From assembly GCF_900105675.1 (NCBI RefSeq), contig NZ_LT629786.1, positions 3,286,001 to 3,350,000 on the forward strand: a stretch of 64,000 nt of DNA, read 5' to 3'. The stretch's first letter is position 1. Every line of letters begins with the position of its first letter. The translations under genes were made by a program, and so were the position numbers. The notes under the pieces are model-generated. The model was not told the origin of the DNA. It saw only the letters and a list, made by a program, of their open reading frames with translations, and searched no databases. Below are positions 4,513 to 38,379 of the stretch, piece after piece. Source of the DNA: Pseudomonas synxantha (lineage in GTDB: Bacteria; Pseudomonadota; Gammaproteobacteria; Pseudomonadales; Pseudomonadaceae).

Positions 4513-4515
4513 AAC

Positions 4516-20902: not shown

Positions 20903-20939
20903 GTCGATCTCCATCAAGGGCTGAAGGCCAGCGCCGCTA

Positions 20940-22300: not shown

Positions 22301-23668
22301 TCAGCGCGTCTGGCCACCGGCAATCGTCTGCGGGTTAGCCTCGCGCTCGGATACCGGCGCTGCGCGATAGCGTGTCGGGCCATTGCCAAACATGCCGTAC
22401 TGGTCACGCGTGAAGTCGTACAACGCGTAGGAGTCCTGCTGCGGGTTATTGGGTATGCCGTAGGCCTCGATGTTGAACTGCGAGCCGGTACGGAACAGCG
22501 CGCCACTGTCATCCCAGGCGTCATACACCGCCGCGCCGAACGTATCCTCGTCGATGTAATAGCGGCGCTTCTTGTGGGCGTGACGTACACCGTCCTTGCG
22601 AGTCGCCTCGACGACCCACACGCGGTGCAGCTCCCAACGCTCGCAGTCGGGGTTGATGTGCTTGGGCATCAGCTTCTTCTGCATGTCGCAGCCCCATTTC
22701 AGCGTGTAATTGCTGTAGGGAATGAACATCTCCTGCTTGCCCACCAGCTTCCAGTCAAAGCGATCCATTTTCCCGGAGAACAGGAAGATTTCGTCATAGA
22801 ACGCCACGCCACCAAACGCCGAGTTGGGCGTGTCGTAGTTGAATTCCGGAGCCTTGCGCACGCGACGCTGGCCGGTGCTGTAGCTCCAGGCATAACGCGC
22901 ATTGGCGACCGGATCCAGGTAGTCCCAATAGCCCGATGCCTGCCCCGCCGTCCGCGCCGGTGCGACGATAAACGACCAGATACGCTGGCCGATCTTCGGG
23001 TCACGCCCCGGCACGTCCAATTGATAGAAGGGTTTCTCACCGGTGGAGCGGTTGGTGTTGGTCAGCGTCGGGTGCCCCTGGTTGACCACATAGGCGCTGT
23101 GGTTCCAGTCCCAACCGTTGACGCCCTGATAGTTGAGGATGTAGTTCCACATGACCTCGTGCCCGTCCTTGGGCAACGGAAACGGCAAGCCACCGCGACA
23201 GCCCTCGCTGATCGACAAACCGTCGTTTTCGGTCCTGCAATCCTGCCGACTGGCGTTGCGCTGGCTGGCGGCCAGAAAGTTGGCCGGAAACGTCGCCGTG
23301 CGGTGGGTGGGGTAAACCTCAAGGTAGTAGGTCGTCGGGTTTTGCTTGAGCAATTGCACCTGCCCGGCGGCCAACTGGTCCTTGTACTGATCAACGTTGG
23401 CGGCAGTAATGCGCAAGCGCGGCTTCTCCCCGGCAAACGGATTGGGCCAGTTACCGTCACCCGGCACCAACCCCGCAGGGACCTTCAAACCGCCGTCATA
23501 CGCCGGAATAGTCCCAGCCGCATTCCCCGCCACAATAGCGCCGAATGGCGTGAGCTTGCCGCCAAGGTCAGCTGCCGTATAGGCATCATCCGCCGTCGCG
23601 GAAGCCGTGAACACCAAAGCCACCAAACCGGCACTCACACCAGTGAGAACCTTCGAAAAACCAGCCAT
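22301..23668 (-). CDS. DUF1329 family exported protein
   Basis: A 455-residue paralogue of the protein at 6925. The start MAGFSKVLTGVS at 23668 opens a clear signal peptide ending at ATADD. The family core follows: LGGKLTPFGAIVAGNAAGTI, PAYDGGLK, YPTHRTATFPANF, GGLPFPLPKDGHEVMWN and YYIDEDTFGAAVYDAWDD. The frame stays open for 175 codons upstream, but that stretch is long repeat copy C and REP sequence and is not part of the protein. The ribosome-binding site before 23668 is poor, perhaps because the repeat displaced the native leader. Confidence 0.9.
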   Translation of the reverse strand: MAGFSKVLTGVSAGLVALVFTASATADDAYTAADLGGKLTPFGAIVAGNAAGTIPAYDGGLKVPAGLVPGDGNWPNPFAGEKPRLRITAANVDQYKDQLAAGQVQLLKQNPTTYYLEVYPTHRTATFPANFLAASQRNASRQDCRTENDGLSISEGCRGGLPFPLPKDGHEVMWNYILNYQGVNGWDWNHSAYVVNQGHPTLTNTNRSTGEKPFYQLDVPGRDPKIGQRIWSFIVAPARTAGQASGYWDYLDPVANARYAWSYSTGQRRVRKAPEFNYDTPNSAFGGVAFYDEIFLFSGKMDRFDWKLVGKQEMFIPYSNYTLKWGCDMQKKLMPKHINPDCERWELHRVWVVEATRKDGVRHAHKKRRYYIDEDTFGAAVYDAWDDSGALFRTGSQFNIEAYGIPNNPQQDSYALYDFTRDQYGMFGNGPTRYRAAPVSEREANPQTIAGGQTR

Positions 23669-23704
23669 TGAAGGCTTCAGCTTTTGACTTGGCTGTTGAT
23701 CCTG

Positions 23705-24008
23705 CTTTTGATCTGCTTCTGATCTCAATCGCCCCGTCAAACCACGCTGGCCGAACGCAGGCTTTGGAGCGTGGGTAACCCGGCAGGACGCCGGGTTAGC
23801 CGCGCTGGGCCAAGGATGGCCCATCGCGGCGGCCCACGCTCCACAGCCGGAGTGAGGGCATGCCGAGCCCAGGCGAGGCACCGAGTGGTGGGGCGAGGAC
23901 CTTTTGGTTACTTTTGGCTGGGCCGGCTTCCGGTCTCTCCAAAAGTGACCCGCTGTAAGAGCGGAACCATAAGCGGACTTTACCGCAGCAACGGATATGT
24001 ACTCCGAC
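23705..24008 (-). repeat. Long hairpin repeat, copy C (diverged)
   Basis: Same orientation as copy B. The outer ends and the AACCCGGC/GCCGGGTT hairpin are conserved. The 24-bp arms are shortened to GGAGCGTGGG (23766-23775) paired with CCCACGCTCC (23833-23842). The changes in the two arms compensate each other, so the hairpin is kept although the sequence differs. It lies 37 bases upstream of the DUF1329 start. Confidence 0.75.
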
Positions 24009-24033
24009 CCAAAACCCTGGCCGCCTGACCCAA

Positions 24034-24136
24034 AGCTTTCGCGAGCAAGCCCGCTCCCACATTTAGACTGCGGGGTGCCAGCTGACTCAGGGTTGGCCCC
24101 GAGGCCGTCATCGCAGGCAAGCCAGCTCCCACCTTT
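24034..24136. repeat. Two REP elements
   Basis: GCGAGCAAGCCCGCTCCCAC near 24041-24060 and GTCATCGCAGGCAAGCCAGC near 24107-24126. Both are fluorescens-group REP types. They adjoin long repeat copy C, as at copies A and B. Confidence 0.7.
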
Positions 24137-24181
24137 GGATTCGGGGGTATCAACCAGCGCCCCATGGAAATCAACCGTCAT
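24135..24181 (-). pseudogene. Possible truncated gene start
   Basis: On the minus strand, TGGAGAGTGTT is an excellent ribosome-binding site before ATG at 24181. It is followed by MTVDFHGALVDTPESK and then directly by REP sequence. It looks like the first 12-16 codons of a gene cut off when the REP/long repeat arrived. It could also be chance. It lies 69 bases downstream of the DUF1302 stop codon, in operon position. Confidence 0.3.
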
Positions 24182-24250
24182 AACACTCTCCATTCAGATG
24201 AAGTAACCGCCGCACTCGACGACCACTGCAATGCAAAACCTGGGGCCCAA

Positions 24251-25921
24251 TCAAAAGGCCGTGCTGAGCGTCAGCGACACCCAATTACGGTCCGTGAGCC
24301 CCACATCGCCGCTGCCGCCCACCACGGTTTTACCCACGCCGGGGACGTTCGCGTATTTGCGCTCGCTGCCATAACCGATGTACGACAAGGTCACGTCATA
24401 GCGCTCGTCGTAGGTGCCCTTGATCCCGGCCTTCCAGGTGTATTTGCCTTCGTTGCCACCGCCGGTGGCGGCATTGCCATACACGCCGTAGTCCACACTC
24501 ATCGGTGCCGAGATATTCCAGCCGGGAAACACCCCCAGCCATTGCGGGGTAAAACTGACCGCCATGCCGACATAGTTTTTGGTCGCGCAGCCGTAGTGTT
24601 TGTCCTGCCCGGACGGACAACCGCCGTAACCTTCGCCCTTGTACAACTCCGCGTGCTCGGTCACCCGTTGCACATGGCTGAACGCGGTTTCGACGATCAG
24701 GTTGCCGGTGTCGAAATACGCCGTGCGCGGCAGCAGCCACAGGCCGTTCACCACCATGTGCCAGGTGTCGCCCCGGGCGCCTTCGTTATCGACGGTGCTG
24801 ATGTTGCTGGAGACCAGCGAGGTGTTCTGTCGGTACGACAGGTCCACGCCAAGGGAGCCGCCGCCCAACACAGGCCCGGCGGAAAAGCCCAGGCCGTAGA
24901 GCTTGACGTCCTTGGGGTAGACGTAGCGGGCAAACGTCGGTGCCACTTGCAGGCCCCAGGGGTTGTAGTCGGCAAATTCGCGGTAATACAGGCTCACATC
25001 CGAGTGCAGCCAATCCAGGCTATAGGTGCCCATCACGCCCCAGTTGCCGGAGTTTTTAGGCTTGAGAGGGTCCACCAGTGGACGCGTAACCCCGCTGAGC
25101 AACGGCAACTGATTCGGCCCTTGCAAGGCCACATCCGCCGAAGCCAGGTAGGTCCCGCCTTCCGGCGCCCGGGTGGTGTCCCACTCGAAGAAATATTGCG
25201 CGGCGACCGACAACCTGTCGGTGATTTGCGCCTGGGTGGAAATCTGCGTCAGCGGCAGGAAGATCTCGCGCGTTTCGGTGCCCGGGTTACTCACGGCCTT
25301 ACGCCCATCCAGCGGCGCTTGCGAATAGGAAATCGCATGCCCGGCAATCAACAAACCATTGCCCCAATACACCGTGTGGCGACCGGCGCGCACGCTGACG
25401 GGAATTTCACCCAGGTCAAAACGGGTGAACGCAAAGGCATCCAGCAACTCGCCGCTGGGGCCGCGGTGATAGCGCTTGGTAAAGCCCGAATAATGCCCGC
25501 CCCGGTAACTGGGCGTACTGGCACCGGGAACGGCGCCAGGGTAATAGACATTGCCATCGGTGGTCTTGACGTCGGTGTTGTCATAGGCCTGGTCGTACCA
25601 CGCGGCACCACTGATGCGTACGCCGTGATACTGCTTGTAGGCGACCTCCAGTTCGCTCATCAGGTCGACGCGGTTGGTCACCACGTCGCCGCGATCGAAC
25701 TTGGCATCGGACTCGTCATAACTCGCGTTATTTGCCAGCGCAGAGTCCCGCGACTCGGCCCGCACGCCCAGGTTGTAACGCACGGTATTGTCCCAGCGCG
25801 CAGACAAATCCGGGTTGCCGGTGTCGATCTCGGCGGCCTGCGCCATGCCCGCAGACACCGCGCCCGTACTCAGGCTGAACCAGAGGGCCAGCCGCAGCGG
25901 CTTCAGTTTTGGGTTGCTCAT
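24251..25921 (-). CDS. DUF1302 family outer-envelope protein
   Basis: A 556-residue DUF1302 protein starting MSNPKLKPLRLALWF behind GGGAGTG, with a signal peptide ending near AQAAE. It has the family pattern LSARWDNTVRYNLGVRAESR, NNASYDESDAKFDRGDVVTN, GRHTVYWGNGLLIAGHAISY and a C-terminal strand ending in Phe (NWVSLTLSTAF). It is more distant from the two other DUF1302 proteins here than they are from each other. It is divergent from the indolepyruvate oxidoreductase gene, with AraC-type direct repeats between. It is paired with the DUF1329 gene at 22301, but the repeat block separates them. Confidence 0.92.
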   Translation of the reverse strand: MSNPKLKPLRLALWFSLSTGAVSAGMAQAAEIDTGNPDLSARWDNTVRYNLGVRAESRDSALANNASYDESDAKFDRGDVVTNRVDLMSELEVAYKQYHGVRISGAAWYDQAYDNTDVKTTDGNVYYPGAVPGASTPSYRGGHYSGFTKRYHRGPSGELLDAFAFTRFDLGEIPVSVRAGRHTVYWGNGLLIAGHAISYSQAPLDGRKAVSNPGTETREIFLPLTQISTQAQITDRLSVAAQYFFEWDTTRAPEGGTYLASADVALQGPNQLPLLSGVTRPLVDPLKPKNSGNWGVMGTYSLDWLHSDVSLYYREFADYNPWGLQVAPTFARYVYPKDVKLYGLGFSAGPVLGGGSLGVDLSYRQNTSLVSSNISTVDNEGARGDTWHMVVNGLWLLPRTAYFDTGNLIVETAFSHVQRVTEHAELYKGEGYGGCPSGQDKHYGCATKNYVGMAVSFTPQWLGVFPGWNISAPMSVDYGVYGNAATGGGNEGKYTWKAGIKGTYDERYDVTLSYIGYGSERKYANVPGVGKTVVGGSGDVGLTDRNWVSLTLSTAF

Positions 25922-26020
25922 CAACACTCCCGTCACATTCTTGTTATTGGCAGCCGAGGGCTGTGGGTTTCGGTGTGAGCAGCAGTAGACGGCACGCGGC
26001 GGCGCCTCACAACGCGCAAC

Positions 26021-26057
26021 GCTATCGCCCAAATGCGTTTTGCTATTGGCCAAATGC
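26021..26057. promoter_or_regulatory. 16-bp direct repeats, candidate AraC-type sites
   Basis: GCTATCGCCCAAATGC at 26021-26036 and GCTATTGGCCAAATGC at 26042-26057 differ at two positions. Their starts are 21 bases apart, two turns of DNA. This layout is typical for AraC-type activators bound next to a promoter. They lie about 160 bases upstream of the ferredoxin-oxidoreductase gene and about 100 bases upstream of the divergent DUF1302 gene. Confidence 0.65.
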
Positions 26058-26212
26058 AGCCGCCGTGACACGTGCACCCAGGTATCCGAAAAGCCAATAC
26101 CTGCAGGGTGTTTTTGTGATTTTACGATGCCAGGCACGCTGCCTAGACTGCGGCGAACAAGGCCGTGCCGTGCTCCCGGCGCCGCCATAAAAATAAAGCC
26201 TGGAGGATCAAC

Positions 26213-29200
26213 ATGAGTGCCGCCCCGTCCCTGGACGACAAGTACATCCAGCACAGCGGAAACGTTTTGCTCACCGGCATTCAAGCGCTGGTGCGCCTGC
26301 CGCTGATGCAGCGGCAACGCGACCTGGCGAATGGCTTGAACACTGCCGGGTTCATTTCCGGCTACCGTGGCTCGCCGCTGGGTGGGTTCGACCAGGCACT
26401 ATGGAAAGCGCGCGACTACCTCAAGGAGCACCACACGGTGTTCCATCCAGGCATGAACGAGGACCTCGCGGCGACCTCGATCTGGGGCACCCAGCAGGTC
26501 AATCTGTTTGAAGGCGCGACCTACGATGGCGTGTTTGGCATGTGGTACGGCAAGGGCCCGGGGGTGGACCGCTGTGGTGATGTGTTCCGCCACGCCAATG
26601 CCGCCGGCACCTCCGCGTTTGGCGGTGTGCTGGCAATTGCCGGGGATGACCATGGCGCCCGCTCCTCTTCGCTGCCGCACCAGACCGAGCATATTTTCAA
26701 GGCGGTGATGATGCCGGTGCTGGCGCCGTCAGGCGTGCAGGAGTACCTCGACTACGGCATGCATGGCTGGGCCATGTCGCGTTACTCCGGTTGCTGGGTG
26801 GCGCTCAAGGCCGTCGCCGATACCGTGGAGAGCGCGGCGGTGGTCGATATCGACATCCATCGCGTGCAGCCGGTGATCCCGGATATCCCCCTGCCCGAGG
26901 GCGGCTTGAATATCCGCTGGCCCGACCCGCCGCTGGCGCAGGAACAACGCCTGCTGGAACACAAACTGTATGCCGCCCTGGCCTATGCCCGGGTCAACCG
27001 CCTCGACCGGATCGTCATGGATTCGCCCGGCGCACGCATCGGCATCGTGACCTCCGGTAAGTCATACCTGGACGTGTGCCAGGCCCTGAAAATCCTCGGC
27101 ATCGATGACGCCCTCGCGCAACAGATCGGCCTGCGCGTGTACAAGGTCGGCATGGTCTGGCCCCTGGAAGCCGAGGGTGTGCGCCAGTTTGCCGAAGGCC
27201 TGGAAGAGATCGTGGTGGTGGAAGAAAAGCGCCACTTGATCGAATACCAATTGAAAGAAGAGCTCTACAACTGGCGCGAAGACGTGCGCCCGCGCATCGT
27301 CGGCAAGTTCGATGACAAGGGCGAATGGAGCCTGCCCCACACCGACTGGCTGCTCCCCGCCACCAACGACCTGACCCCGGCGATGATTGCCCGAGCCTTG
27401 GCCAAGCGCATTTTGCGCCTGCACCAAAGCGGGCCATTGCAGGTGCGCCTGGCGGTGCTGGACGCGCAATTGGCGAGCAAACACCAGTTCAGCAACCTGA
27501 TGGACCGCGTCCCCCACTATTGCTCCGGCTGCCCCCACAACACCTCGACCAAAGTGCCCGAGGGCAGTCGCGCGCTGGCCGGCATCGGCTGCCATTACAT
27601 GGCGGCGTGGATCTACCCGCAGACCCAGACCTTCAGCCAGATGGGCGGCGAAGGTGTGGCCTGGATCGGCCAGGCGCCCTTCACGGCCACCGAGCATGTA
27701 TTCGCCAACCTGGGCGACGGCACGTACTTCCACTCCGGCATTCTGGCGATTCGCGCGGCCGTCGCCGCCAACGTCCAGATCACCTACAAGATTCTCTACA
27801 ACGATGCGGTTGCCATGACCGGCGGCCAGCCCGTGGACGGCAGCCTGAGCGTCGCGCAAATCAGCCGGCAGCTGGCCGCCGAAGGCGTGCAGCGCATTGT
27901 GGTGGTCAGCGAGGATGTCGATAAGTACCAGCACATCGATGACCTGGCCGACGGCGTGCCCGTGCTGCGTCGCGACAAAATGGACGCGGTTCAGCAAGAG
28001 CTGCGCCAGTTCAAGGGCGTGTCCGCGATCATCTATGACCAGACCTGCGCCGCCGAAAAACGCCGGCGCCGCAAGCGCGGTAAATTCCCCGACCCGGCAC
28101 GTCGGGTGGTGATCAACGAAGCGGTGTGCGAGGGCTGCGGCGACTGCAGCAGCAAGTCCAACTGCATGTCGGTGGTGGCCGTGGAAACCGAGTTCGGGCG
28201 CAAGCGCGAAATCGACCAGTCGTCCTGCAACAAGGATTTCACCTGCCTCAACGGCTTCTGCCCCAGCTTTGTCACGGTCGAAGGCGGCACCCTGCGCAAA
28301 CCCAAGCCGCTGGCCAACACCGAGGAAGCCTGGAACCTGCCGACCCCGGCCGTCGCGGCGCTGGATGAGCCCTATAGCATCCTGGTGACAGGCGTTGGCG
28401 GCACCGGTGTGGTGACCATCGGCGCACTGCTCGGCATGGCGGCCTTTATCGAAGGCAAGGGCACCCTCAACCTGGACATGGCCGGCATGGCGCAAAAAGG
28501 CGGCGCCGTGTGGTCGCATATCCGCATTGCCGCACGCCAGGACCAGCTGTTCGCCCCACGTATCGCCGAAGGTGAGGCCGCGCTGCTGCTGGGGTGCGAC
28601 CTGGTGGTAAGTGCCAACACCGAAACCCTGTCGAAACTGCGCCAGGGCGTGACCCATGCGCTGGTCAATTGCGAAGAAAGCATCACCAGTGCCTTTGTCC
28701 GCACCTTTGCCTTGCAGGCGCAAAGCGGGGATTTGCTCAAACACCCCGACCCGACCTTCCATACCCACAGCATGAGCGCGCAGATCAGCGAAGCGGTCGG
28801 CCCCGACCAGGCGGACTTTGTGGATGCGAGCAAGGTTGCCACGGCGCTGATGGGCGATTCGATTGCCACCAACACCTTCATGCTCGGCTACGCCTGCCAG
28901 AAAGGCTGGCTGCCGGTGGGTGAAGCGGCCTTGCTGCAAGCGATTGAACTGAACGGTACGGCGGTGGCGTTCAACCTGTCGGCTTTCGCCTGGGGCCGGC
29001 GCAGCGCGCAGGACTTGCCGCGGGTGCTGCGAAAGTTGCGCGACGCCAACGTGCAGAACGCCGAGCGCACGCTCTCCAAAGACCTGCAACAAAGCGTGAC
29101 ACCCCGCGTGAACGCACTCGGCGCCTACCAGAACGCCGCCCTCGGGCAACGCTACCAGCAGCGGGTCAAGCAGTTCATGGCTGCAGAAACCGCCCTGCTC

Positions 29201-29773
29201 GGACAGCCGGGCGCACTGTCGGCGAGTGTCGCGCGGCACTACTTCAAAGTGCTGGCAATCAAGGATGAGTACGAAGTGGCGCGGCTGTTCACCGATGGCC
29301 GGTTCCTGCAAAACATTCAGGCCCAGTTCGAGGGTGACTACCGCCTGCGTTTTCACTTGGCACCACCGGTACTCAACCGTACAAACCCAGGCGCCGAAGC
29401 AAAAAAACGCAGCTACGGCCCGTGGATGCTGCAGGGCTTCAAGCTCCTGGCCAGCCTGAAGGGCTTGCGTAATACCTGGCTCGATCCGTTCGGGTACACC
29501 CACGAACGCAAAGTCGAACGCGCCTGGCTGGCCAACTATGAATCGATCCTGGATGAGTTGCTCGCGGGCCTGACGCCCGACAACCTGGCCCTGGCGCAGG
29601 ACCTTGCCGACCTGCCGGACAGCGTGCGCGGTTATGGCCCAGTGAAAGAGCGCTACCTGACCCACGCCTATCAGCGCCAGGCACAGTTACTGGAGCAGTG
29701 GCGCCGGGGTCCGTCCGCGATGTTCCACGATGCCGCCCAAGGCACCGGCAAAATTGCCGTCACACACCTTTAG
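26213..29773 (+). CDS. Indolepyruvate:ferredoxin oxidoreductase-family protein, fused
   Basis: A 1186-residue single-chain 2-oxoacid:ferredoxin oxidoreductase of the proteobacterial indolepyruvate type, which turns 2-oxoacids into acyl-CoA with thiamine diphosphate and FeS clusters. Order: N-terminal pyrimidine-binding region (GFISGYRGSPLGGFDQAL), CSGCPHNTS near residue 440, the TPP-binding FANLGDGTYFHSG near 500 with YNDAVAMTGGQP, a Cys-rich ferredoxin-like segment (CEGCGDC, then SSCNKDFTC) near 640-680, and the gamma domain VTGVGGTGVVTIG from about 720. The start MSAAPSLDDKY at 26213 has GGAGGA upstream. It heads an operon with a thiolase, TetR and probably folE. The true substrate, aryl or branched 2-oxoacid, is not known. 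Confidence 0.9.
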   Translation: MSAAPSLDDKYIQHSGNVLLTGIQALVRLPLMQRQRDLANGLNTAGFISGYRGSPLGGFDQALWKARDYLKEHHTVFHPGMNEDLAATSIWGTQQVNLFEGATYDGVFGMWYGKGPGVDRCGDVFRHANAAGTSAFGGVLAIAGDDHGARSSSLPHQTEHIFKAVMMPVLAPSGVQEYLDYGMHGWAMSRYSGCWVALKAVADTVESAAVVDIDIHRVQPVIPDIPLPEGGLNIRWPDPPLAQEQRLLEHKLYAALAYARVNRLDRIVMDSPGARIGIVTSGKSYLDVCQALKILGIDDALAQQIGLRVYKVGMVWPLEAEGVRQFAEGLEEIVVVEEKRHLIEYQLKEELYNWREDVRPRIVGKFDDKGEWSLPHTDWLLPATNDLTPAMIARALAKRILRLHQSGPLQVRLAVLDAQLASKHQFSNLMDRVPHYCSGCPHNTSTKVPEGSRALAGIGCHYMAAWIYPQTQTFSQMGGEGVAWIGQAPFTATEHVFANLGDGTYFHSGILAIRAAVAANVQITYKILYNDAVAMTGGQPVDGSLSVAQISRQLAAEGVQRIVVVSEDVDKYQHIDDLADGVPVLRRDKMDAVQQELRQFKGVSAIIYDQTCAAEKRRRRKRGKFPDPARRVVINEAVCEGCGDCSSKSNCMSVVAVETEFGRKREIDQSSCNKDFTCLNGFCPSFVTVEGGTLRKPKPLANTEEAWNLPTPAVAALDEPYSILVTGVGGTGVVTIGALLGMAAFIEGKGTLNLDMAGMAQKGGAVWSHIRIAARQDQLFAPRIAEGEAALLLGCDLVVSANTETLSKLRQGVTHALVNCEESITSAFVRTFALQAQSGDLLKHPDPTFHTHSMSAQISEAVGPDQADFVDASKVATALMGDSIATNTFMLGYACQKGWLPVGEAALLQAIELNGTAVAFNLSAFAWGRRSAQDLPRVLRKLRDANVQNAERTLSKDLQQSVTPRVNALGAYQNAALGQRYQQRVKQFMAAETALLGQPGALSASVARHYFKVLAIKDEYEVARLFTDGRFLQNIQAQFEGDYRLRFHLAPPVLNRTNPGAEAKKRSYGPWMLQGFKLLASLKGLRNTWLDPFGYTHERKVERAWLANYESILDELLAGLTPDNLALAQDLADLPDSVRGYGPVKERYLTHAYQRQAQLLEQWRRGPSAMFHDAAQGTGKIAVTHL

Positions 29774-29818
29774 GCAACAGCACCGTGCTGCGGCACGGTC
29801 ATATTTTTGGAGAGCGCC

Positions 29819-31000
29819 ATGCAAGATGTCGTCATAGTCGCGGCCACCCGCACCGCCATCGGGACCTTTCAAGGGGCACTGGCCAACACGCCTGCCGTGG
29901 AGCTGGGCAGCATTGTGATCCGGGCACTGCTGAAAACGTCCGGCATCGATGCCGCGCTGGTGGACGAGGTGATCCTCGGCCAGGTCCTCACCGCAGGCTG
30001 CGGCCAGAACCCGGCACGCCAGGCGGCGTTGAATGCCGGCCTGCCATTCGGCGTGGCGGCGATGACCGTCAACAAGCTCTGCGGCTCGGGCCTCAAGACC
30101 GTCAGCCTGGCCGTCCAGGCGATCCGCTGTGGCGACGCCGACGTGGTGATCGCCGGCGGTATGGAAAACATGAGCCTGGCGCCCTACACCCTGGCCAAGG
30201 CGCGCACCGGCCTGCGCCTGGGCCACGCGCAACTGGCCGACTCGCTGCTGCAGGATGGCCTGCTGGACGCGTTCAACGACTACCACATGGGCATCACCGC
30301 CGAGAACCTGGTCGACCGCTTCCAGCTGACTCGCGAGCAACAAGACAGTTACGCCCTGCGTTCGCAGCAACGCGCCAGCGCAGCCCTCGAGGCCGGGTAT
30401 TTTACCGAGCAGATCACCCCGGTGGCCGTGCCCCAGCGCAAAGGCGAGCCGCTGCTGTTTGCGAAGGATGAACAACCCCGCGAGCACACCACGGCGGACA
30501 GCCTGGCCAAGCTCAAGCCGGCCTTCAAGGCGGATGGCAGCGTCACGGCAGGCAACGCCTCGGCGATCAACGATGGCGCGGCGGCGGTGCTGCTGATGAG
30601 CGCGAGCAAGGCCCAGGCCCTGGGTGTGCCGGTGCTGGCCACCATCAAGGCATATGCCAGCAGCGGTGTCGACCCGGCGATCATGGGGATCGGGCCGGTG
30701 TCGGCCACCGAAAAATGCCTGGCCAAGGCCGGTTGGCAGTTGGCTGACCTGGACCTGATCGAAGCCAATGAAGCCTTCGCCGCGCAGTCACTGGCCGTTG
30801 GCAAGGCGCTGGGTTGGGACAGCGACAAGGTGAATGTCAACGGCGGCGCCATTGCGCTAGGCCATCCCATCGGTGCTTCGGGTTGCCGGGTGCTGGTGAC
30901 GCTGCTGCATGAAATGCGCCGGCGCGATGTGAAAAAAGGCCTGGCCACCTTGTGCATTGGTGGCGGCATGGGTGTGGCCCTTGCGGTAGAACGGCCATGA
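29819..31000 (+). CDS. Acetyl-CoA acetyltransferase (thiolase)
   Basis: A 393-residue thiolase starting [15 protein letters not shown] behind GGAGAG. The acyl-accepting Cys88 is in [12 protein letters not shown]. The His motif is [14 protein letters not shown] and the second catalytic Cys is in [10 protein letters not shown]. It cleaves or condenses 3-ketoacyl-CoA with acetyl-CoA. The gene lies 45 bases after the oxidoreductase gene and overlaps the TetR start by 4 bases. In this context a degradative role at the end of the pathway is likely. Confidence 0.95.
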
Positions 31001-31620
31001 GCGGCGGGCGCCTGGCCGCCGTGCCCGCATCGCCATGGCCTGGCGAAACCGACGATGACGTGAGCACCCGTCAGTTGTTGCGCCAGGTGGCACAGGAGCT
31101 GTTCGCCGAGCAGGGTTTCCAGGCGGTCAGCCTGCGCCAACTGGCGGTGGCAATGGGCATGCAAGTGGGCTCGCTGTACAACCACATCGACAGCAAGCAG
31201 GTATTACTGTTCGAGCTGATCCAGGACCATGAAAGCGAGCTGTTGGCGCTGCTGTGCAAAGACCTCGTGCGCCGCGCCGAAGGCCTGCCGCAACTGGAGG
31301 CCTACGTGCGCCTGTATTTGCAGTTCAACTGCCTGCACGACCAGCGCCATACCCTCGCCCGCCTGGAATTTCGCAGCCTGGCACCCGAGCAGCAACACAG
31401 CATCAAGCTGTTGCGCCAAACCCATGTCGATCTGCTGGAAGACCTGCTGCGCCGCTGTGCCCTGCCCGCCAGGGAATGCGGCACCATCGCGCTCGGCATG
31501 CGCGCCCTGCTCGACGGCGTGGTGGCCGGCTACCCCGTGGGAGGACGGCCACCGCTGGGTAACCTGGCGGCGCTGTTCAGCCGCATGGTGATGAGCGGGT
31601 TGAGCCAACCCCAGGCCTGA
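30997..31620 (+). CDS. TetR-family transcriptional regulator
   Basis: A 207-residue regulator whose ATG overlaps the thiolase stop codon (ATGA), so it is translated with the thiolase. The TetR DNA-binding domain spans about residues 26-75: [20 protein letters not shown], then [20 protein letters not shown] and KQVLLFELI. The C-terminal domain resembles acyl-CoA-responsive regulators of fatty-acid type operons ([15 protein letters not shown]), but that is only a resemblance. Being inside the operon, it probably controls its own transcription. Confidence 0.88.
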
Positions 31621-31655: not shown

Positions 31656-32213
31656 ATGAACGAAGAACTGGCCCGGCATTACCGCGAGATTATCCAGGGT
31701 ATCGGTGAAGACCCGCGGCGCGAAGGCTTGCTGGACACCCCCAAGCGCGCGGCGAAAGCCATGCAGTATTTGTGTCACGGCTACCAGCAGAGCCTGGCGC
31801 AAGTGGTCAACGACGCGCTGTTTGAATCGGATAACGATGAGATGGTGATCGTGCGGGATATTGAGCTGTACTCCCTGTGCGAGCACCACCTGCTGCCATT
31901 CATTGGCAAGGCCCACGTCGCCTACATGCCCACCGGCAAGGTCCTCGGTTTGTCCAAGGTGGCGCGCATTGTCGACATGTATGCCCGCCGCTTGCAGATC
32001 CAGGAAAACCTCACCCGGCAAATCGCCGAGGGCATTGCCCACGTCACTGGCGCCGCCGGGGTGGCCGTGGTGATCGAAGCCAAGCACATGTGCATGATGA
32101 TGCGCGGCGTCGAGAAGCAAAACTCGGTGATGACCACGTCGGTGATGCTGGGTGCGTTTCGCGAGTCGTTCAACACGCGCCAGGAGTTCCTGCAGTTGAT
32201 CCGCAACCATTGA
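31656..32213 (+). CDS. folE: GTP cyclohydrolase I
   Basis: A 185-residue type I GTP cyclohydrolase, which makes 7,8-dihydroneopterin triphosphate from GTP. The zinc site [19 protein letters not shown] (Cys75, His78) and the later [18 protein letters not shown] are intact, as is [13 protein letters not shown]. Length and motifs are normal, so it should be active. It lies 35 bases after the TetR gene on the same strand and converges on the SDR at 32220. Pseudomonads often carry several folE copies. A copy inside a catabolic operon suggests a pterin demand or a duplicated housekeeping function; neither is proven. Confidence 0.95.
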
Positions 32214-32219: not shown

Positions 32220-32975
32220 TCAACTGAGCATCACCATCCCGCCATCGATCATCAGGGTCTGCCCGGTGACAAAACGCGAGCCCTCCCCCGCCAGGAACAC
32301 CAGCACCGGCGCGAGATCGCGGGCGGGGTCACCCAGGCGGCCGCCCAATGGCAACTGCCCGGCCATGAACGCGTCATGCTGCGCCAACTGCTCGCCACTC
32401 ATGCTGGCGCGGGTTGCCTCGTACATCGGCGTCCACATTGCCGGGGCAATCGCGTTGACCGTGATACCGAGCGGGCCCCACTCGCGGGCCACGGTGCGGG
32501 TCCAGGCCAGTACCGCACCTTTGCTCGCCGCGTAGTGAGCCTTGCCGGGCTGGCCGACCACGCCGGCGGCCGAGGCAAAATTGATGATGCGCCCGCCTGC
32601 ATGCTTGAGCCGTTCATAGGCCGCGCGGTTGGTGAGGAAGGTGCCACGGGTATTCACCGCAAAGACCTGCTCCCATTCATCCAGGCTGATCGCCTCGGCA
32701 CGCGCATTGGGGGCGATCCCGGCTGCGTGCATCAGTACGTCAAGCCCGTCCAGCTGCTGGTCGGCCCACTCGAAGGCGGCATCCACCGAGTGCCGGTCGG
32801 CGATATCGCAGGTGCGGCTTGTCGACCAACCGCCATCGGCCCCCGCAAGGTCTGCCGATTGGCCGAGATCGAGGCTGACCACATGGGCGCCTTCATCAAC
32901 GAAGGCCTGGACCATGGCGGCGCCGATACCTCGGCCGCCCCCCGTGACGATGATGCGTTTGCCTGCCAGTTGCAT
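32220..32975 (-). CDS. Short-chain dehydrogenase/reductase
   Basis: A 251-residue SDR with TGGGRGIG, the NAD-favouring VVSLDLGQ, catalytic Ser in INFASAAGVVG and Tyr-x3-Lys in YAASKGAVLAW. It resembles 3-hydroxyacyl-CoA or 3-ketoacyl reductase-type SDRs. It is the last gene of the CoA-transferase, SDR, acyl-CoA dehydrogenase, kinase operon, 24 bases after the kinase. In the levulinate pathway an SDR (LvaD) oxidises the 3-hydroxyacyl-CoA product, and this protein or the one at 35363 could fill that role here. Confidence 0.9.
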   Translation of the reverse strand: MQLAGKRIIVTGGGRGIGAAMVQAFVDEGAHVVSLDLGQSADLAGADGGWSTSRTCDIADRHSVDAAFEWADQQLDGLDVLMHAAGIAPNARAEAISLDEWEQVFAVNTRGTFLTNRAAYERLKHAGGRIINFASAAGVVGQPGKAHYAASKGAVLAWTRTVAREWGPLGITVNAIAPAMWTPMYEATRASMSGEQLAQHDAFMAGQLPLGGRLGDPARDLAPVLVFLAGEGSRFVTGQTLMIDGGMVMLS

Positions 32976-32999
32976 GAGCGGTTCCTCGTGGGGTGCGGG

Positions 33000-34046
33000 T
33001 TATTGATCGATGCGCTGCAACGCCGTCGCCAACAAGCGTAACGCCGAAGCATGGTGTTTTTCGCCAGTGGCCATCGGCGCCTTGCCGGCGCAGGCACGGG
33101 CATAACTGACTTCCAGAAAGATGCCGAGCTTGAACCCGGCCAATACCAGGTACCAGGTGAAGTCGGCCAGCGAGCGCGAGCTGCCGGCGCGGTAGTGGGC
33201 GACCAGCTCATCCGTGCTGCAAAAGCCCGCCCAGGGGTGCACCTCAATCGTGCCGGCGCCGAAACCATCGGCGTCGGGCCAGGTAACCACCAGCCAAGCC
33301 AGGTCGAGCAAGGGGTCGCCAACGGTGGCCAACTCCCAATCGACCACGGCCGCCAGCTCGGCACTGTCGTGGCGGAACATCACATTGGAGAGGTGAAAGT
33401 CGCCATGCAGGATGCCGGCCTCAAACTGTTGCGGGCAGTGTGCGTTGAGCCACGCTGCCACCCGATCCAGGCCAGGCAACTCGCTGGCGCCCGGCCAATC
33501 GGCATAACCCTTGACGCTGTCGAGGTGCGCCAGCCACCGTGCCACCTGACGCTGACGGAAACCTGCGGGGCGGCCAAAATCCGCCAGCCCGACCGCGTGG
33601 TAATCGACTTCGCCCAGGCGCAGCAGCGCGTCCACCATGGCCAGCCCCATACGCCGACGCAGCTGGGGGTCGCTGGCCTGCAGGGGCGGCAGGCCAGCGA
33701 CGTTGTTGGGGTTGAAGCCTTGCACCGGCTCCATCAGGTAGAAACTCGCCCCCAGCACATCCGGGTTATCGCACGCAGCAATCAGCCCGGCATGCGGCAC
33801 CGCTGAACCCGCCAACGCCTGCAGCAGCCGGGCCTCGCGCTTGATGGTGGTGTTGCCGACCTCGCGCAGTTCCCGCGATGGGCAGCGCAACACGAACTCA
33901 CGCGCACCACGGCGAAAGTGCAGCAGCAGGTTTTGCGTACCGCCGGCCAGGACCCGCGCAGCCTCGATCGGACCGTGCTCCAGGCCGCAGTCATCCATCC
34001 AGCGCGCCAGGCGATCCGGCTCGACCAACGCCTGCCAGTCGTTCAT
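33000..34046 (-). CDS. APH-fold acyl-CoA hydroxyl kinase (LvaA/ACAD10-like)
   Basis: A 348-residue phosphotransferase. The nucleotide-binding part is in the first 110 residues (EFVLRCP, YLMEPVQGFN). The catalytic loop is HGDFHLSN at 214-221, and the metal-binding VVDWELATVGDPLLDLAW follows. This kinase type is fused to the acyl-CoA dehydrogenase in animal ACAD10/ACAD11 and stands next to it in bacterial operons such as lva of Pseudomonas putida. There it phosphorylates the hydroxyl group of 4-hydroxyacyl-CoA. The start codon overlaps the acyl-CoA dehydrogenase stop by 4 bases, as expected for partners. The substrate chain is unknown. Confidence 0.9.
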   Translation of the reverse strand: MNDWQALVEPDRLARWMDDCGLEHGPIEAARVLAGGTQNLLLHFRRGAREFVLRCPSRELREVGNTTIKREARLLQALAGSAVPHAGLIAACDNPDVLGASFYLMEPVQGFNPNNVAGLPPLQASDPQLRRRMGLAMVDALLRLGEVDYHAVGLADFGRPAGFRQRQVARWLAHLDSVKGYADWPGASELPGLDRVAAWLNAHCPQQFEAGILHGDFHLSNVMFRHDSAELAAVVDWELATVGDPLLDLAWLVVTWPDADGFGAGTIEVHPWAGFCSTDELVAHYRAGSSRSLADFTWYLVLAGFKLGIFLEVSYARACAGKAPMATGEKHHASALRLLATALQRIDQ

Positions 34047-35338
34047 GCCTGCGGCTCGTCGAAGTGTGCCAATACGTCGGCATATTTTTCCCTGGCACGG
34101 GCGGCAGCGGTCGGCCGATGGTAGGCGGGGAACACCTCGTCACAGGCGTGGTAGTCGCGCAGCAGCTGTTTGGCGACGGTGATTTTGTGCACCTCGGTAG
34201 GCCCATCCGCCAGCCCCATCTGGAATGAGCGAACGATGTAGCCGGTAAACGGCATTTCGTCGCTGACCCCCAGCGAACCGTGCACATGCAAGGCGCGTGC
34301 GGCAATGTCATGCAGCACCTTGGGCATGGCGGCCTTGACGGCGGCGATGTCTTTGCGCACCCGTTGGTAATCCTGGTACTGGTCGATTCGCCAGGCGGTG
34401 CGCATCACCAGCAAGCGGAATTGCTCAAGCTCGATCCAGGAGTCGGCGATCTTTTCCTGGACGAGTTGCTTGTCGGCCAGGCGACTGCCCTGGGTTTTGC
34501 GCGACAAGGCGCGTTCGCACAACGCATCCAGGGCCTTCTGGGCCTGGCCGATCACGCGCATGGCGTGGTGCACCCGGCCGCCGCCCAGGCGCACCTGGGC
34601 CACCACAAACGCCTGCCCCGGCGCGCCGAGCATGGCGCTGGCGGGTACACGCACATTGTCGAAAGACAGGTAGGCATGGGTGGCCGCCGGGTCATCGGCG
34701 ATGCCGACGTTGCGGATGATGCTCACCCCTGGCGTATCGGCGGGCACGATAAACATCGACATGCCGTTGTACACCGAGACACTTTTGTCGGTGACCGCCA
34801 TCACGATGTAGAACGCCGCGTAGCGCGCGTTGGAGGCGAACCACTTCTGGCCGTTGAGCAACCAGTCATCGCCCTCGCGCACCGCGTCGGTGGTGAAGAC
34901 CGCAGGGTCGGCGCCGCCCTGGGGTTCGGTCATGGCGAAGCAGGACACGATATCCCCCGCAAGCAGCGGTTGCAGGTAACACTGCTTTTGCTGCGGCGTG
35001 CCGAAATGCGCAAGGATTTCACTGTTGCCCGAGTCCGGTGCCTGGCAACCGAACACGATGGGGCCGAACAGCGAACGCCCGAGAATTTCATTGATCAGCG
35101 CCAGCCGCACCTGGCCATAGCCCGCACCGCCCAGCTCTGGCCCCAGGTGGCAGGCCCACAACTTGCGCGCCTTGACCCGCGCCTGCAACGGCTTGACCAG
35201 TTGCTGGAACAGCGGGTCATGGATATTCCATGGGCTGCCCAACACATGGTCGAGGGGCTCGACCTCTTCACGCACGAACTGCTCGATCCAGTCCAGTTCA
35301 GCTTGAATCTCGGGGTCTGTCTGGAAGTCCCAGGCCAT
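34043..35338 (-). CDS. ACAD10/11-like acyl-CoA dehydrogenase family protein
   Basis: A 431-residue protein of the acyl-CoA dehydrogenase fold. Its signature APDSGN at 100-105, FAMTEP near 134-139, GRVHHAMRVIGQAQKALD and the C-terminal FQMGLADGPTEVHKITVAK follow the ACAD10/ACAD11 group more closely than ordinary fatty acyl-CoA dehydrogenases. In that group the enzyme eliminates phosphate from a phosphorylated acyl-CoA and gives an enoyl-CoA. It is translationally coupled to the kinase gene at 33000 and follows an SDR after 24 bases. Confidence 0.92.
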   Translation of the reverse strand: MAWDFQTDPEIQAELDWIEQFVREEVEPLDHVLGSPWNIHDPLFQQLVKPLQARVKARKLWACHLGPELGGAGYGQVRLALINEILGRSLFGPIVFGCQAPDSGNSEILAHFGTPQQKQCYLQPLLAGDIVSCFAMTEPQGGADPAVFTTDAVREGDDWLLNGQKWFASNARYAAFYIVMAVTDKSVSVYNGMSMFIVPADTPGVSIIRNVGIADDPAATHAYLSFDNVRVPASAMLGAPGQAFVVAQVRLGGGRVHHAMRVIGQAQKALDALCERALSRKTQGSRLADKQLVQEKIADSWIELEQFRLLVMRTAWRIDQYQDYQRVRKDIAAVKAAMPKVLHDIAARALHVHGSLGVSDEMPFTGYIVRSFQMGLADGPTEVHKITVAKQLLRDYHACDEVFPAYHRPTAAARAREKYADVLAHFDEPQA

Positions 35339-35362
35339 GGTGTCTCTCCTAGCAATAAGTGA

Positions 35363-36100
35363 TCAGGCCAGCAGCATGCCGCCGTCGACCAACAGGGTCT
35401 GGCCCAGCAGGTAGCCCGCCAGGGGCGAGGCCAGGAACAGCGCCACATTGGCCATGTCCTGCGGTGTGCCCAGGCGCCCCAGAGGGATGCCGCGCAACGC
35501 GCTTTCAAGGCGTTTGGGGTTGGCGGTGGTGACCTGGGTCAGCTTGGTCTCCACCAGGCCAGGCGCAATGCCGTTGACCCGGATACCGTCCCGCGCCCAC
35601 GCTTCGGCCAGGGTGCGCGTAAGGCCGAAAGCGCCGGTCTTGGAGGCGTTATAGGCTGGGTTACCCCGGGTGGAATGGAACGCCGCCGCCGAGCTGACAA
35701 CGATCAACGCGCCCTTTGCGTCCTTGAGCAGCGGGTAAAATTTCTGCGCGCAGACCATCACGCTGGTGAGGTTGACATCCAGCACATGCTTGAAGCCTTC
35801 GGTGAGAAACTCCTGGCGGTCATAGAGCACCGTGCCCTGGGCCAGTACCAGCACATCCAGCCGCGCAAACGGCACCCGGGTCGCTTCGATCAGGTCGGCA
35901 TCGGCCACGTTGACCCGGGCGTAGTGCAAGCCTTCGAGGTCCGAATCCGCCGAGTCCGCGTAGGCGGCGGCATTCGCCCGCGTACCCCACACGTGCACCT
36001 GGGCTCCGCGTCGGCGAAAGTTCTGCGCGATGCTGTTGCCTATACCGCTGGAGCCGCCCACCACCAGCACGGTTTTGTCGTTGAAGTCCAACTCGTCCAT
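35363..36100 (-). CDS. Short-chain dehydrogenase/reductase
   Basis: A 245-residue SDR. GGSSGIG near the N terminus is a slightly shortened nucleotide motif, followed by VWGTRANA. The active site is complete: Ser in VVSSAAAFHS and Tyr-x3-Lys in AYNASKTGAFGL. It lies between the CoA-transferase (32 bases upstream) and the ACAD10/11-like gene (24 bases downstream) in the same operon. It probably oxidises or reduces a hydroxy or keto group on the CoA-linked intermediate. Confidence 0.9.
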   Translation of the reverse strand: MDELDFNDKTVLVVGGSSGIGNSIAQNFRRRGAQVHVWGTRANAAAYADSADSDLEGLHYARVNVADADLIEATRVPFARLDVLVLAQGTVLYDRQEFLTEGFKHVLDVNLTSVMVCAQKFYPLLKDAKGALIVVSSAAAFHSTRGNPAYNASKTGAFGLTRTLAEAWARDGIRVNGIAPGLVETKLTQVTTANPKRLESALRGIPLGRLGTPQDMANVALFLASPLAGYLLGQTLLVDGGMLLA

Positions 36101-36132
36101 GGAAATTCCTTGTGCTGCGTGTCGAGAAATCG

Positions 36133-38379
36133 TCAGGGTTGCTGCAGCGTCAACCAGCCATCGGCGGCCAATCGCTGCAGTTCGTCATCGGCAAAACCCA
36201 GCCCCTGCAGGACTTGCCGCGTGTGTTGGCCCAGCGCCGGCGGCGGACGCGACAACGCCAGGGGCAGGTCACCGAAGTCCCAGAACTCGCCGATCTGTTG
36301 CAGCTGGCCATACTCCGCGTGGTCAGTGTGAGCGTGCAGGCCGGCCGCGGCGTGCTCGGGGTTGTCGAGAAAAGCCTCGCGCTGTGCCTCCAGCACCGCT
36401 TCGGCGGGCACCTGCGCCTCTGCCAGTGCCGCCAATGCCGCATCACGCGGTTGGCGGTCGCACCAGTCGTGAGGCGCATCGCCCACCAGCGCGTGAAAAC
36501 GCTGCACTTCATCAGGGGTCAGGGCCGCGACGGCGATCCATGCATCGCGGCAGAGGTATAAGCGATGGTTGTCCGCCAGGCCGGTCTGTTGCCCGTCCAT
36601 CGGTTCGAACGGTGTGAGGCTGCCGTCTGCACGTACCACCACTTCACTCATGGTGAGCAACGTGGCACCCAGTAAAGAGGCGTTGACCATTTGCCCGGTG
36701 CCACTGCGATTGCGTTGATACAGCCCCAGCAGCAAGGCGTACAGCGAGGACAGGCCGGCGAAGAAATCCCCGACGCCAAAGCGCAGCCACATGGGTGCCT
36801 GCCCCTCGCCGCCCTGCGCGACCTCCCAGCCGCACGCGGCTTGCATCAATTGATCAAACCCCGGCCAGTCGGCACGCGGCCCGGTGGGTCCATAGGCGCT
36901 GACGTGGCAATACAGCAACTGCGGGTTGATCGTCTTGAGCGAGGCGTAATCGACCTTGAGCTTGCGCGCTGCCGGCAGGCGCATGTTGTGGTGGACCACA
37001 TCCGCCCAGCGCACCAGCGCCTCCACCGCCGGCCGGGTGTGCGTATCGCCCAATTGCAGCGCCACACCCAGCTTGCCGCGCTGGGTACCGCTGAATACGC
37101 GTTCCAGGCGTCGCATGGCGTCGCCCTTGGGCGCCTCGACCTTGATCACTTCGGCCCCGAGGTCGGCCAATAACATGCAGGCAAACGGTCCAGCCAGATA
37201 AGCGCCCAGGTCGAGTACCTTCAAGCCGTGCAGTGGCGGCAATGGTGCCGCCCCCTCAGCGGCTAGCGCTATAGGGGCGAGCGCAGGGAATTCGGGTAGC
37301 CCGGCCCCGGCTTCGTTGGCCCGTGGCGCACCAGTACCGATGGGCGGTAGGGGCTGCACTTGCCAGGCGCGTCCAGGCTGCCAAGTCGTGCCTAACTGCT
37401 CATCCTCGACCTGCACCACGTAGCCATTGAGACGGGCTTGCTCGTCGAAATAAATATCGCCAAACGGCGCCGCGATTTGCGCTGCCACATCGTGCTGCCA
37501 GAAGTGCTCGACCCAATCCTGTGCAGGGCGCGTGGCGATCACGGCCTTGTTCGCACCGAAGTTCGGTGCTACATGACTGGGTGGCCACAGCGCGTTCAGC
37601 CGGGCTACCTCGACCTCTCCCAACGCGGCGAGCGCGGTAGCCATCCACGGTGCCTTGTCCGGTGAATAGTGCACATGCAGCCAGCGACCGTCGGCGCATT
37701 GATGCAGGGGAATGGGAATGTGTTTGTCCAGGCCTTTGGCAAACGCCGGGGTAGGCGTTTGTGCGCGGCTCCAATGCATGGTCATCGGTACTAGTGCGGC
37801 TTGCGCCAGGCTGGTGTGGGCGAGCCCGCCCCGGCCATCACGGTCGCGGGCAAGCAGGCGCGCCATCACCCCGACGACACAGAGCCAGCCCGCCAGCCAG
37901 TTGGCAAAGGGTATGCGCACGAACACCGGGCCAGATCGGTGACCGGGCTGCTCGTCCAGCAACCCCAGACGCGCCAATATCAAGGTTTCCCGCGACAAGG
38001 CGTTTGCCAGCGCGTGACGCCGGGGCCAGCCGCTGATGGATGAAATCACCAAGCGGGGAAACGCCGCCGTGAGTAAGGCGTCCGCCAGACCGTGGGCCTT
38101 TGCCACGTCCGGCGTGAAGTCATGCAGCAACACATCCGCATCGCTGAGCAGTTGTTGCAGCTGTTCAAGGCCGACAGCCGCTTCGAGGTCGAGAACGACG
38201 CTGCGTTTGCCCCGGTTGAGTACCGCAAACAGCACAGGCTGGTCTCGGGCCGGGTTAACAACTGGCTCGACCATTATCACCTGCGCTCCGGCCTCACTCA
38301 GTTGCAGGCCAGCCGCTGAGCCGGCAATGCCGGAACACAGGCTGATAACGCGAATTCCTTGAAGCACGGCATGGCTCAT
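36133..38379 (-). CDS. Family III CoA-transferase, two CaiB-like domains fused
   Basis: A 748-residue fusion of two CaiB/BaiF domains. The first (about 1-345) keeps the fold pattern IRVISLCSGIAGSAAGLQLS but lacks a recognisable catalytic Asp. The second (from LKVLDLGAYLAGPFACMLLA near 386) is normal and has the Asp in WPGFDQLMQAACGW at 509. One active and one degenerate half is a known layout in this family. It should activate the pathway acid by moving CoA from another acyl-CoA. First gene of the operon; candidate operator S5 lies about 145 bases upstream. Confidence 0.92.
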   Translation of the reverse strand: MSHAVLQGIRVISLCSGIAGSAAGLQLSEAGAQVIMVEPVVNPARDQPVLFAVLNRGKRSVVLDLEAAVGLEQLQQLLSDADVLLHDFTPDVAKAHGLADALLTAAFPRLVISSISGWPRRHALANALSRETLILARLGLLDEQPGHRSGPVFVRIPFANWLAGWLCVVGVMARLLARDRDGRGGLAHTSLAQAALVPMTMHWSRAQTPTPAFAKGLDKHIPIPLHQCADGRWLHVHYSPDKAPWMATALAALGEVEVARLNALWPPSHVAPNFGANKAVIATRPAQDWVEHFWQHDVAAQIAAPFGDIYFDEQARLNGYVVQVEDEQLGTTWQPGRAWQVQPLPPIGTGAPRANEAGAGLPEFPALAPIALAAEGAAPLPPLHGLKVLDLGAYLAGPFACMLLADLGAEVIKVEAPKGDAMRRLERVFSGTQRGKLGVALQLGDTHTRPAVEALVRWADVVHHNMRLPAARKLKVDYASLKTINPQLLYCHVSAYGPTGPRADWPGFDQLMQAACGWEVAQGGEGQAPMWLRFGVGDFFAGLSSLYALLLGLYQRNRSGTGQMVNASLLGATLLTMSEVVVRADGSLTPFEPMDGQQTGLADNHRLYLCRDAWIAVAALTPDEVQRFHALVGDAPHDWCDRQPRDAALAALAEAQVPAEAVLEAQREAFLDNPEHAAAGLHAHTDHAEYGQLQQIGEFWDFGDLPLALSRPPPALGQHTRQVLQGLGFADDELQRLAADGWLTLQQP

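Follow-up and report, generated by a model that had tools for sequence, protein, structure and literature searches.

We describe a five-gene operon in a 64,000-nucleotide stretch of the Pseudomonas synxantha genome (hereafter the window; positions 3286001-3350000 of a 6.84-Mb single-contig genome), which probably encodes a phosphorylation-dependent dehydroxylation module feeding a hydroxylated acyl-coenzyme A (acyl-CoA) into beta-oxidation. Judged from sequence comparison, it looks like a system of the LvaA/LvaC-ACAD10/11 kind with a distinct, second type of phosphate-eliminating acyl-CoA dehydrogenase (ACAD). LvaA and LvaC turn 4-hydroxyacyl-CoA into 2-enoyl-CoA via a phosphate ester (PMC6692424, PMC11342911), and ACAD10 and ACAD11 were shown to carry out phosphoelimination chemistry only in 2024-2025 (PMC11342911, PMC12440821). 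Such phosphorylation and phosphate elimination had been suggested for the operon in an earlier note on the same DNA; phylogeny, diagnostic residues and an apparent exchange of ACAD types behind the kinase all argue for it.

Architecture and recurrence of the operon

Five open reading frames (ORFs) were confirmed, all on the minus strand and as tightly packed as the earlier note had described them. In the order CaiB, SDR1 (short-chain dehydrogenase 1), ACAD, kinase and SDR2 they are:

36133-38379, minus strand: CaiB-type fused family III CoA-transferase, 748 amino acids (aa); Pfam PF02515 (CoA_transf_3), 472 bits
35363-36100, minus strand: SDR1, short-chain dehydrogenase, 245 aa; Pfam adh_short_C2
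34043-35338, minus strand: ACAD-like flavoprotein of the ACAD10/11 superfamily, window-type (defined below), 431 aa; Pfam Acyl-CoA_dh N/M/1
33000-34046, minus strand: APH-fold kinase, candidate hydroxyacyl-CoA kinase, 348 aa; Pfam APH, 123.7 bits
32220-32975, minus strand: SDR2, second short-chain dehydrogenase and final gene of the operon, 251 aa; Pfam adh_short

The intergenic distances, in transcript order, are 32 bases, 24 bases, a 4-base overlap between ACAD and kinase, and 24 bases. The overlap is an ATGA in which the stop codon of the ACAD gene is shared with the start codon of the kinase gene; the translational coupling that had been asserted for this pair is consistent with it. Pfam domains were assigned to all five proteins with large margins, CoA_transf_3 being matched in several stretches of CaiB (a fused double domain). 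The five-protein set recurs in identical order in eight other Pseudomonas genomes, at approximately 62-93% identity, and the layout is therefore not a matter of chance. In a search of 298 genomes of the genus, with scoring confined to the five top candidates of each, the ACAD was found at 80% identity or more in at least 12 (own genome included), so the operon is patchily distributed; ACAD10/11-like matches with E <= 1e-60 were obtained in at least 290 of the 298. Of 587 relatives the best 80 were retained, and of 282 records 30 were listed, nine of which were examined.

The dehydrogenase belongs to a sister subfamily of ACAD11

Against the Protein Data Bank (PDB), the window ACAD scored 268 bits with 4hr3, 245 bits with mouse ACAD11 and 168 bits with a short-chain ACAD. 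A second, canonical ACAD11-type protein is encoded elsewhere in the genome, at 1440510-1441703, with 520 bits against 4hr3 and 486 bits against ACAD11; this paralog is 61% identical to ACAD11, compared with 40% for the window ACAD, and the two are 38% identical to each other. We grouped the relatives by identity into window-type (at least 48% to the window ACAD) and canonical (at least 50% to the canonical ACAD of the genome), with two of 121 ACAD matches dropped at 300 residues or fewer. In a tree of 78 ACADs, from which near-copies had been removed by hand (nine rows, plus 34 of the 46 other ACADs), the window-type proteins form a clade of 34 rows with a support of 100 in the Shimodaira-Hasegawa-like approximate likelihood ratio test (SH-aLRT). 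Its sister is the canonical clade of 32 rows (support 98), which holds mouse ACAD11, 4hr3 and the canonical copy of the genome, and the two clades are united at support 92. A further branch (support 96) leaves ten of the 12 ordinary ACADs on its outer side, with two third-type ACADs (L101 and L164) branching between. The window ACAD thus falls outside the clade of ACAD11 and 4hr3 in this tree, which was built without LvaC, and from this position it is to be classed neither with the ordinary ACADs nor as an ortholog of ACAD11. On this evidence we assign it to the ACAD10/11 superfamily, as a member of a subfamily sister to ACAD11; the ACAD10/11-like label given to it earlier holds for the superfamily, by tree and residues, and fails as a claim of orthology to ACAD11 (approximately 40% identity). 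The protein did not group with the ordinary fatty acyl-CoA dehydrogenases, the outcome that the earlier note had named as a refutation, and that identity was ruled out by the tree together with the diagnostic residues.

The residues in question are those that set the phosphate-eliminating enzymes apart. R626, H634 and R637 of ACAD11 are reported to touch the phosphate and to be absent from conventional ACADs, and their substitution to block the ACAD reaction with build-up of the phosphorylated intermediate; D753 is the catalytic base (PMC12440821), and a helix-breaking proline widens the pocket (PMC11342911). P101, R250, H257, H258, R261 and D378 of the window protein align with P463 (human numbering), R626, H633, H634, R637 and D753 of ACAD11. 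Equivalents of P463, R626, H633, H634, R637, D753 and H756 were present in the window ACAD, in 40/40 window-type and in 32/32 canonical proteins of a 121-sequence alignment. Most of 46 other ACADs lack the key residues: R626 is kept in three, H634 in two, R637 in 11, D753 in two and the pocket proline in two. R631, described as common across the ACAD family (PMC12440821), is kept in 42 of these 46.

A third, rarer ACAD type, represented by L101:12534-14192 (Rhodococcus) and L164:10558-12162 (Mycobacterium), adjoins the same kinase group; it is approximately 35% identical to the other two types and branches just outside both. At the start of the ACAD gene beside a Sulfitobacter kinase lies a 102-base PLSDB 'vanG' resistance prediction (L061:13800-13901), which looks spurious.

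The kinase retains the residues of 4-hydroxyacyl-CoA kinases

The best PDB matches of the window kinase are 9o56, 3dxp and ACAD11. Like 4-hydroxyacyl-CoA kinases, it has the APH fold, the HGDxxxxN and DWE motifs and arginines at the CoA contacts, its catalytic residues being D216, N221 and D236, with R70 and R166 at the proposed contacts with CoA. The Arg-Glu of the alphaC helix, R176, D220, N225 and DWE (ACAD11 numbering) are kept in the window protein and in 106/106 relatives; R176 of ACAD11 has been placed at CoA (PMC12440821), and the arginine before the alphaC glutamate, residue 84 of ACAD11 by chain count, was assumed to be the R86 of that paper. Two other APH-fold proteins of the window, taken as controls, have lost some of the checked residues. 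In a quick kinase tree, from which four near-copy rows had been removed by hand, a branch with support 100 splits 103 window-group kinases from ten reference and canonical kinases.

A second kinase of the same kind is encoded elsewhere in the genome, unlinked to and some 430 kb away from the canonical ACAD (L083:6510-7739, L084:6449-7516). A search for close relatives of the kinase in viral_contigs gave no close match. The window as a whole is rich in this fold: it contains three different APH-fold proteins (4516-5715, 19538-21043 and 33000-34046), and with 14 APH matches in the genome, random placement would put at least three in one such window with a probability of about 0.0003. In the kinase alignment the protein at 19538 is devoid of the kinase asparagine, and that at 4516 matches an ecdysteroid-kinase-like family.

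Two dehydrogenase types alternate behind one kinase clade

Of the 107 window-group kinases (window included), 39 lie within 4 kb of a window-type ACAD on the same strand and 24 within that distance of a canonical one, whereas neither type was found for the other 44. On a careful tree of the 55 kinases with an ACAD partner and three references, from which eight near-copy rows had been removed by hand, the ACAD type changes seven times (6-9 times across bootstrap trees), at least three of these changes being forced by well-supported branches, and a tree in which the canonical-partnered kinases are held as a single group was rejected (approximately unbiased test, p-AU 0.0017). Within one kinase clade the partner ACAD thus appears to have switched repeatedly from one form, window-type or canonical, to the other, the simplest reading of which is that both types do the same job behind the kinase. 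After the residues, we regard this as the strongest argument for the phosphoelimination chemistry. A literature search found no paper on the window-type ACAD-kinase pair or on such partner exchange among the top-ranked matches listed, most subscription papers being outside its coverage.

The gene set kept around the kinase was counted at 105 loci (window excluded, and L070 dropped as lying, to judge by the length of 268,618 bases, on the same contig as L102, both of which are kept in the counts of 107 and 106). SDR1 (at least 50% identity, within 4 kb) was found at 56, a same-strand ACAD of either type within 4 kb at 61 and both at 52. After 20 near-copy locus ids had been removed by hand, 42 loci with an ACAD were left, whose largest clusters were the kinase (41), SDR1 (34), window-type ACAD (21) and canonical ACAD (21). 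The common core is an SDR1-ACAD-kinase triad.

CoA-transferase and short-chain dehydrogenases

SDR1 is the commonest partner of the kinase, present at 34 of the 42 thinned ACAD-bearing loci just mentioned, and is of the enzyme type of LvaD; the earlier statement that the setting has no other lva-like genes overlooks it. By analogy with LvaD, we infer that SDR1 may be a 4-oxoacyl-CoA reductase or hydroxyacyl-CoA oxidoreductase. CaiB is of more restricted occurrence, being found at 16 of the 105 kinase loci, all 16 of which have the full CaiB-SDR1-ACAD-kinase-SDR2 set; SDR2 is accordingly present at 16/16 CaiB-bearing loci.

The two halves of CaiB differ. At the position of the catalytic aspartate of family III, the N-terminal half has an asparagine (IPFANW), and the aspartate is present in the C-terminal half alone (GVGDFFAG). 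This pattern was seen in 14/14 sequences, namely the window and 13 of the 16 ortholog loci (L059, L119 and L149 were not recovered). Against PDB, the N-terminal half matches racemases best, and the C-terminal half a chain named as formyl-CoA transferase, a CaiB/BaiF protein and succinate-HMG CoA-transferase. Transfer of CoA onto the substrate by CaiB, which the earlier note had put in the place of a CoA ligase, is plausible and fits with the finding that no AMP-binding protein or acyl-CoA ligase occurs among the 30 ORFs scanned with Pfam in the genomic island described below (a few are likely spurious frames, and the scan covered part of the ORFs); the single catalytic aspartate and the presence of CaiB at only 16 loci weaken the case for it.

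A catabolic island with the operon at one end

The operon forms one end of an island of approximately 37 kb, which is common in whole or in part to eight other Pseudomonas genomes. Towards the left end of the window it is followed by:

31656-32213, plus strand: FolE-type GTP cyclohydrolase I, NCBIfam above cut-off; convergent with SDR2 at a 6-base gap
30952-31620, plus strand: TetR-type regulator (Pfam)
29807-31000, plus strand: thiolase (acetyl-CoA C-acetyltransferase), NCBIfam NF004206 above cut-off
26165-29773, plus strand: indolepyruvate ferredoxin oxidoreductase (IOR)-family protein, NCBIfam NF009588, 1711 bits
1456-26317: rest of the island, by Pfam: SDRs, a tyrosine-phosphatase-like protein, an EcKL kinase, an amidohydrolase, an aldehyde dehydrogenase (ALDH), a GMC oxidoreductase, MFS, two DUF1329/DUF1302 pairs (6925-10295 and 22301-26317), LysR, AraC and TetR regulators and the second APH protein

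In the eight other Pseudomonas the operon is linked to the IOR gene, to FolE (G106 being the exception) and to a larger or smaller share of the genes up to position 1456; the matches, drawn up gene by gene, do not extend to every gene in every genome, and for G295 and G193 the comparison covers part of the stretch. The IOR-family gene is a conserved neighbour of the operon (80-89% in these eight genomes), occurring within 9 kb at 15 of the 105 kinase loci, and its product might possibly supply an acyl-CoA from a 2-oxo acid. The thiolase gene lies beside the operon only in some relatives (L068-L071 among L066-L076). FolE occupies the same position, flanked by the TetR gene and the operon, in L066-L075 and L102 and was not found in L076, L103 and L104; the ORFs scanned included no pterin-dependent enzyme. 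Beyond 38379, on the right-hand side of the window, no gene had a match in the compared stretches of the eight Pseudomonas, among the matches listed. Additional genes in some relatives encode VOC and Rieske proteins, VanA-type ones among them, and G106 adds P450, enoyl-CoA hydratase, MMPL and YCF48-like genes. For ten more proteins, nine of them encoded in the window and one in a relative, NCBIfam gave no useful names.

In Castellaniella defragrans, DUF1302 and DUF1329 proteins serve in monoterpene efflux as AmeA and AmeB (PMC6394551), and on these grounds the island hints, and does no more than hint, at an apolar substrate; that it is terpenoid-like, perhaps, is our guess.

Packed together at 3610-6875 are the Y_phosphatase3 protein, the EcKL kinase and Amidohydro_2, a kinase-phosphatase pair being odd in a catabolic island.

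Proposed chemistry and its alternatives

We suggest the following sequence of steps, the first two of which are guesses and the latter two modelled on relatives that were assayed in the work on ACAD10/11. CaiB would transfer CoA from an acyl-CoA donor to a free hydroxy or oxo acid, and SDR1 or SDR2 might then bring the hydroxyl into the right oxidation state or stereochemical form. The kinase would phosphorylate the acyl-CoA on its hydroxyl, with C4 as the likeliest position, and in the ACAD, D378 would remove the alpha proton with the phosphate held by R250, H258 and R261, so that phosphate would be expelled to give a 2-enoyl-CoA with no net oxidation. C4 is the best guess because ACAD10-dependent phosphorylation in cells was seen with 4-hydroxyhexanoate and not with 5- or 6-hydroxyhexanoate (PMC11342911).

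Several observations weigh against this proposal. The window ACAD shares only 40% of its residues with ACAD11; the cysteine of the HCMR motif is replaced by alanine (HAMR) in it and in 39/40 window-type relatives, and the aspartate after DGP by threonine, again in the window and in 39/40. The alanine also occurs in 4hr3, which groups with ACAD11, and in one of 32 canonical proteins. Long branches are flagged in all three trees, namely the ACAD tree and the first kinase tree, both of them quick trees with no bootstrap (SH-aLRT being the sole support measure of the ACAD tree), and the careful kinase tree; the outgroup of the ACAD tree does not fall on one side of a branch. Among the gene partners, the 44 of 107 kinases with neither ACAD type nearby include 17 at mycobacterial loci where no ACAD was seen in the vicinity; some of the 44 lie at contig ends, with an ACAD on the opposite strand, or beside the third ACAD type. 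CaiB (within 8 kb, at least 55% identity) was not found at 89 of the 105 loci, some of them cut short.

It is conceivable that the ACAD works as an ordinary alpha,beta-dehydrogenase with electron-transfer flavoprotein as its electron acceptor and that the kinase acts on an unrelated compound, for instance as a resistance-type phosphotransferase; Pfam and NCBIfam names are indeed generic (ACAD, APH), and neither protein reaches an NCBIfam cut-off. We consider this very unlikely in view of the tree position, the phosphate-site residues, the gene overlap and the pairing of the kinase with either of two types of the ACAD10/11 superfamily, and an aminoglycoside, macrolide or capreomycin resistance kinase was ruled out, the respective NCBIfam models giving 22-29 bits against cut-offs of 205-650. 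A redundant second pathway for levulinate or 4-hydroxyvalerate seems similarly improbable: SDR, ACAD and kinase are the enzyme types of LvaD, LvaC and LvaA (PMC6692424), but no ligase or symporter-type gene was seen among the island ORFs scanned, the island carries genes for redox reactions and for transport of hydrophobic compounds, and the canonical-type ACAD and kinase are located elsewhere in the genome.

The alternatives that retain phosphoelimination deserve more weight. Its substrate could be hydroxylated at another position, or be a cyclic or branched acyl-CoA such as a terpenoid or ring-cleavage product, instead of a straight 4-hydroxy fatty acid, a reading to which we give a little less than an even chance. 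It would fit the split of the window-type ACAD from the ACAD11 subfamily, the two DUF1302/DUF1329 pairs with their Castellaniella counterparts, the P450, Rieske and MMPL genes of the relatives, and the presence of a GMC oxidoreductase and ALDH with no acyl-CoA ligase among the scanned ORFs; on the other hand, the relatives may share the restriction of ACAD10 to the 4-hydroxy acid (PMC11342911), and DUF1302/DUF1329 proteins are not terpene-specific, being listed also for a toluene degrader and for isolates from oil. As to activation, CaiB could be a racemase- or isomerase-like or CoA-shuffling enzyme, with the acyl-CoA made by the IOR-family protein or by a ligase encoded elsewhere. Family III includes alpha-methylacyl-CoA racemases, which the N-terminal half matches best; the catalytic aspartate is confined to one half, and the operon has the IOR-family gene as a conserved neighbour, but the CoA-transferase matches of the C-terminal half count against this role, which we think unlikely, if less so than the two readings dismissed above.

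Implications

If the proposed dehydroxylation is correct, the window-type ACADs would reveal what the active site needs, with R/H/R/D kept and the cysteine dispensable, and the operon would offer a bacterial pair for the study of an odd, redox-neutral flavin mechanism. Many genes whose annotation says no more than 'phosphotransferase family protein' or 'acyl-CoA dehydrogenase' would become candidates for hydroxyl removal in catabolic clusters. Going further, the window-type ACADs could be a second, separately evolved phosphate-eliminating subfamily, interchangeable with ACAD10/11-LvaC behind one kinase-SDR pair and, in Pseudomonas, set within an island for apolar natural products, with ATP-driven removal of unactivated hydroxyls being general in the catabolism of terpenoids or ring compounds and not confined to 4-hydroxy fatty acids; we put this broader view forward tentatively, holding it rather more likely to fail than to stand.

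Comparison with known systems

Family III CoA-transferases offer a parallel for the uneven halves of CaiB. In the heterodimeric benzylsuccinate CoA-transferase BbsEF, one Bbs subunit reportedly lacks the catalytic aspartate, and the window CaiB likewise has one active-site aspartate per two domains. Both BbsEF chains are among its PDB matches, although they resemble it only distantly (the C-terminal half scores 86-102 bits), and the two domains of CaiB, unlike those of BbsEF, are joined in one polypeptide.

The lva operon of Pseudomonas putida has separate kinase and ACAD genes of the same two superfamilies, clustered with an SDR gene (PMC6692424, PMC11342911). LvaC is 62% identical to ACAD10 and 56% to ACAD11 (PMC11342911), whereas the window ACAD, at just 40% identity to ACAD11, belongs to the sister clade; ACAD11 served as a stand-in for LvaA and LvaC in all our comparisons. 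The window operon further differs in that CaiB stands where the lva operon has the ligase LvaE; the island ORFs scanned include no ligase. No Pfam match of the LvaB, LvaR or acetate-type symporter kind was found among the scanned ORFs, with no search aimed at LvaB. Six of twelve canonical second ACAD copies in Pseudomonas were examined, of which three have an adjoining kinase and none a recognisable lva operon.

With mammalian ACAD10 and ACAD11 (of which ACAD11 was compared), the window pair shares the catalytic and CoA-contact residues of the kinase, the R626/H634/R637 phosphate site and the catalytic aspartate. It differs from the single kinase-ACAD fusion of mammals in being made of two polypeptides, with the ACAD gene first, and from ACAD11 in having HAMR for HCMR and DGPT for DGPD and in belonging to the sister subfamily.

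Window-type pairs were found in a Massilia putida plasmid, P. grimontii, P. abietaniphila, Variovorax, Caulobacter, Piscinibacter and others; it was the occurrence in P. abietaniphila that brought the abietane dit cluster into consideration. Those of Variovorax, Caulobacter and Piscinibacter have no CaiB of the window kind nearby; what the window-type pairs have in common with the operon described here is the SDR1-ACAD-kinase triad, with ACADs 67-93% identical to that of the window.

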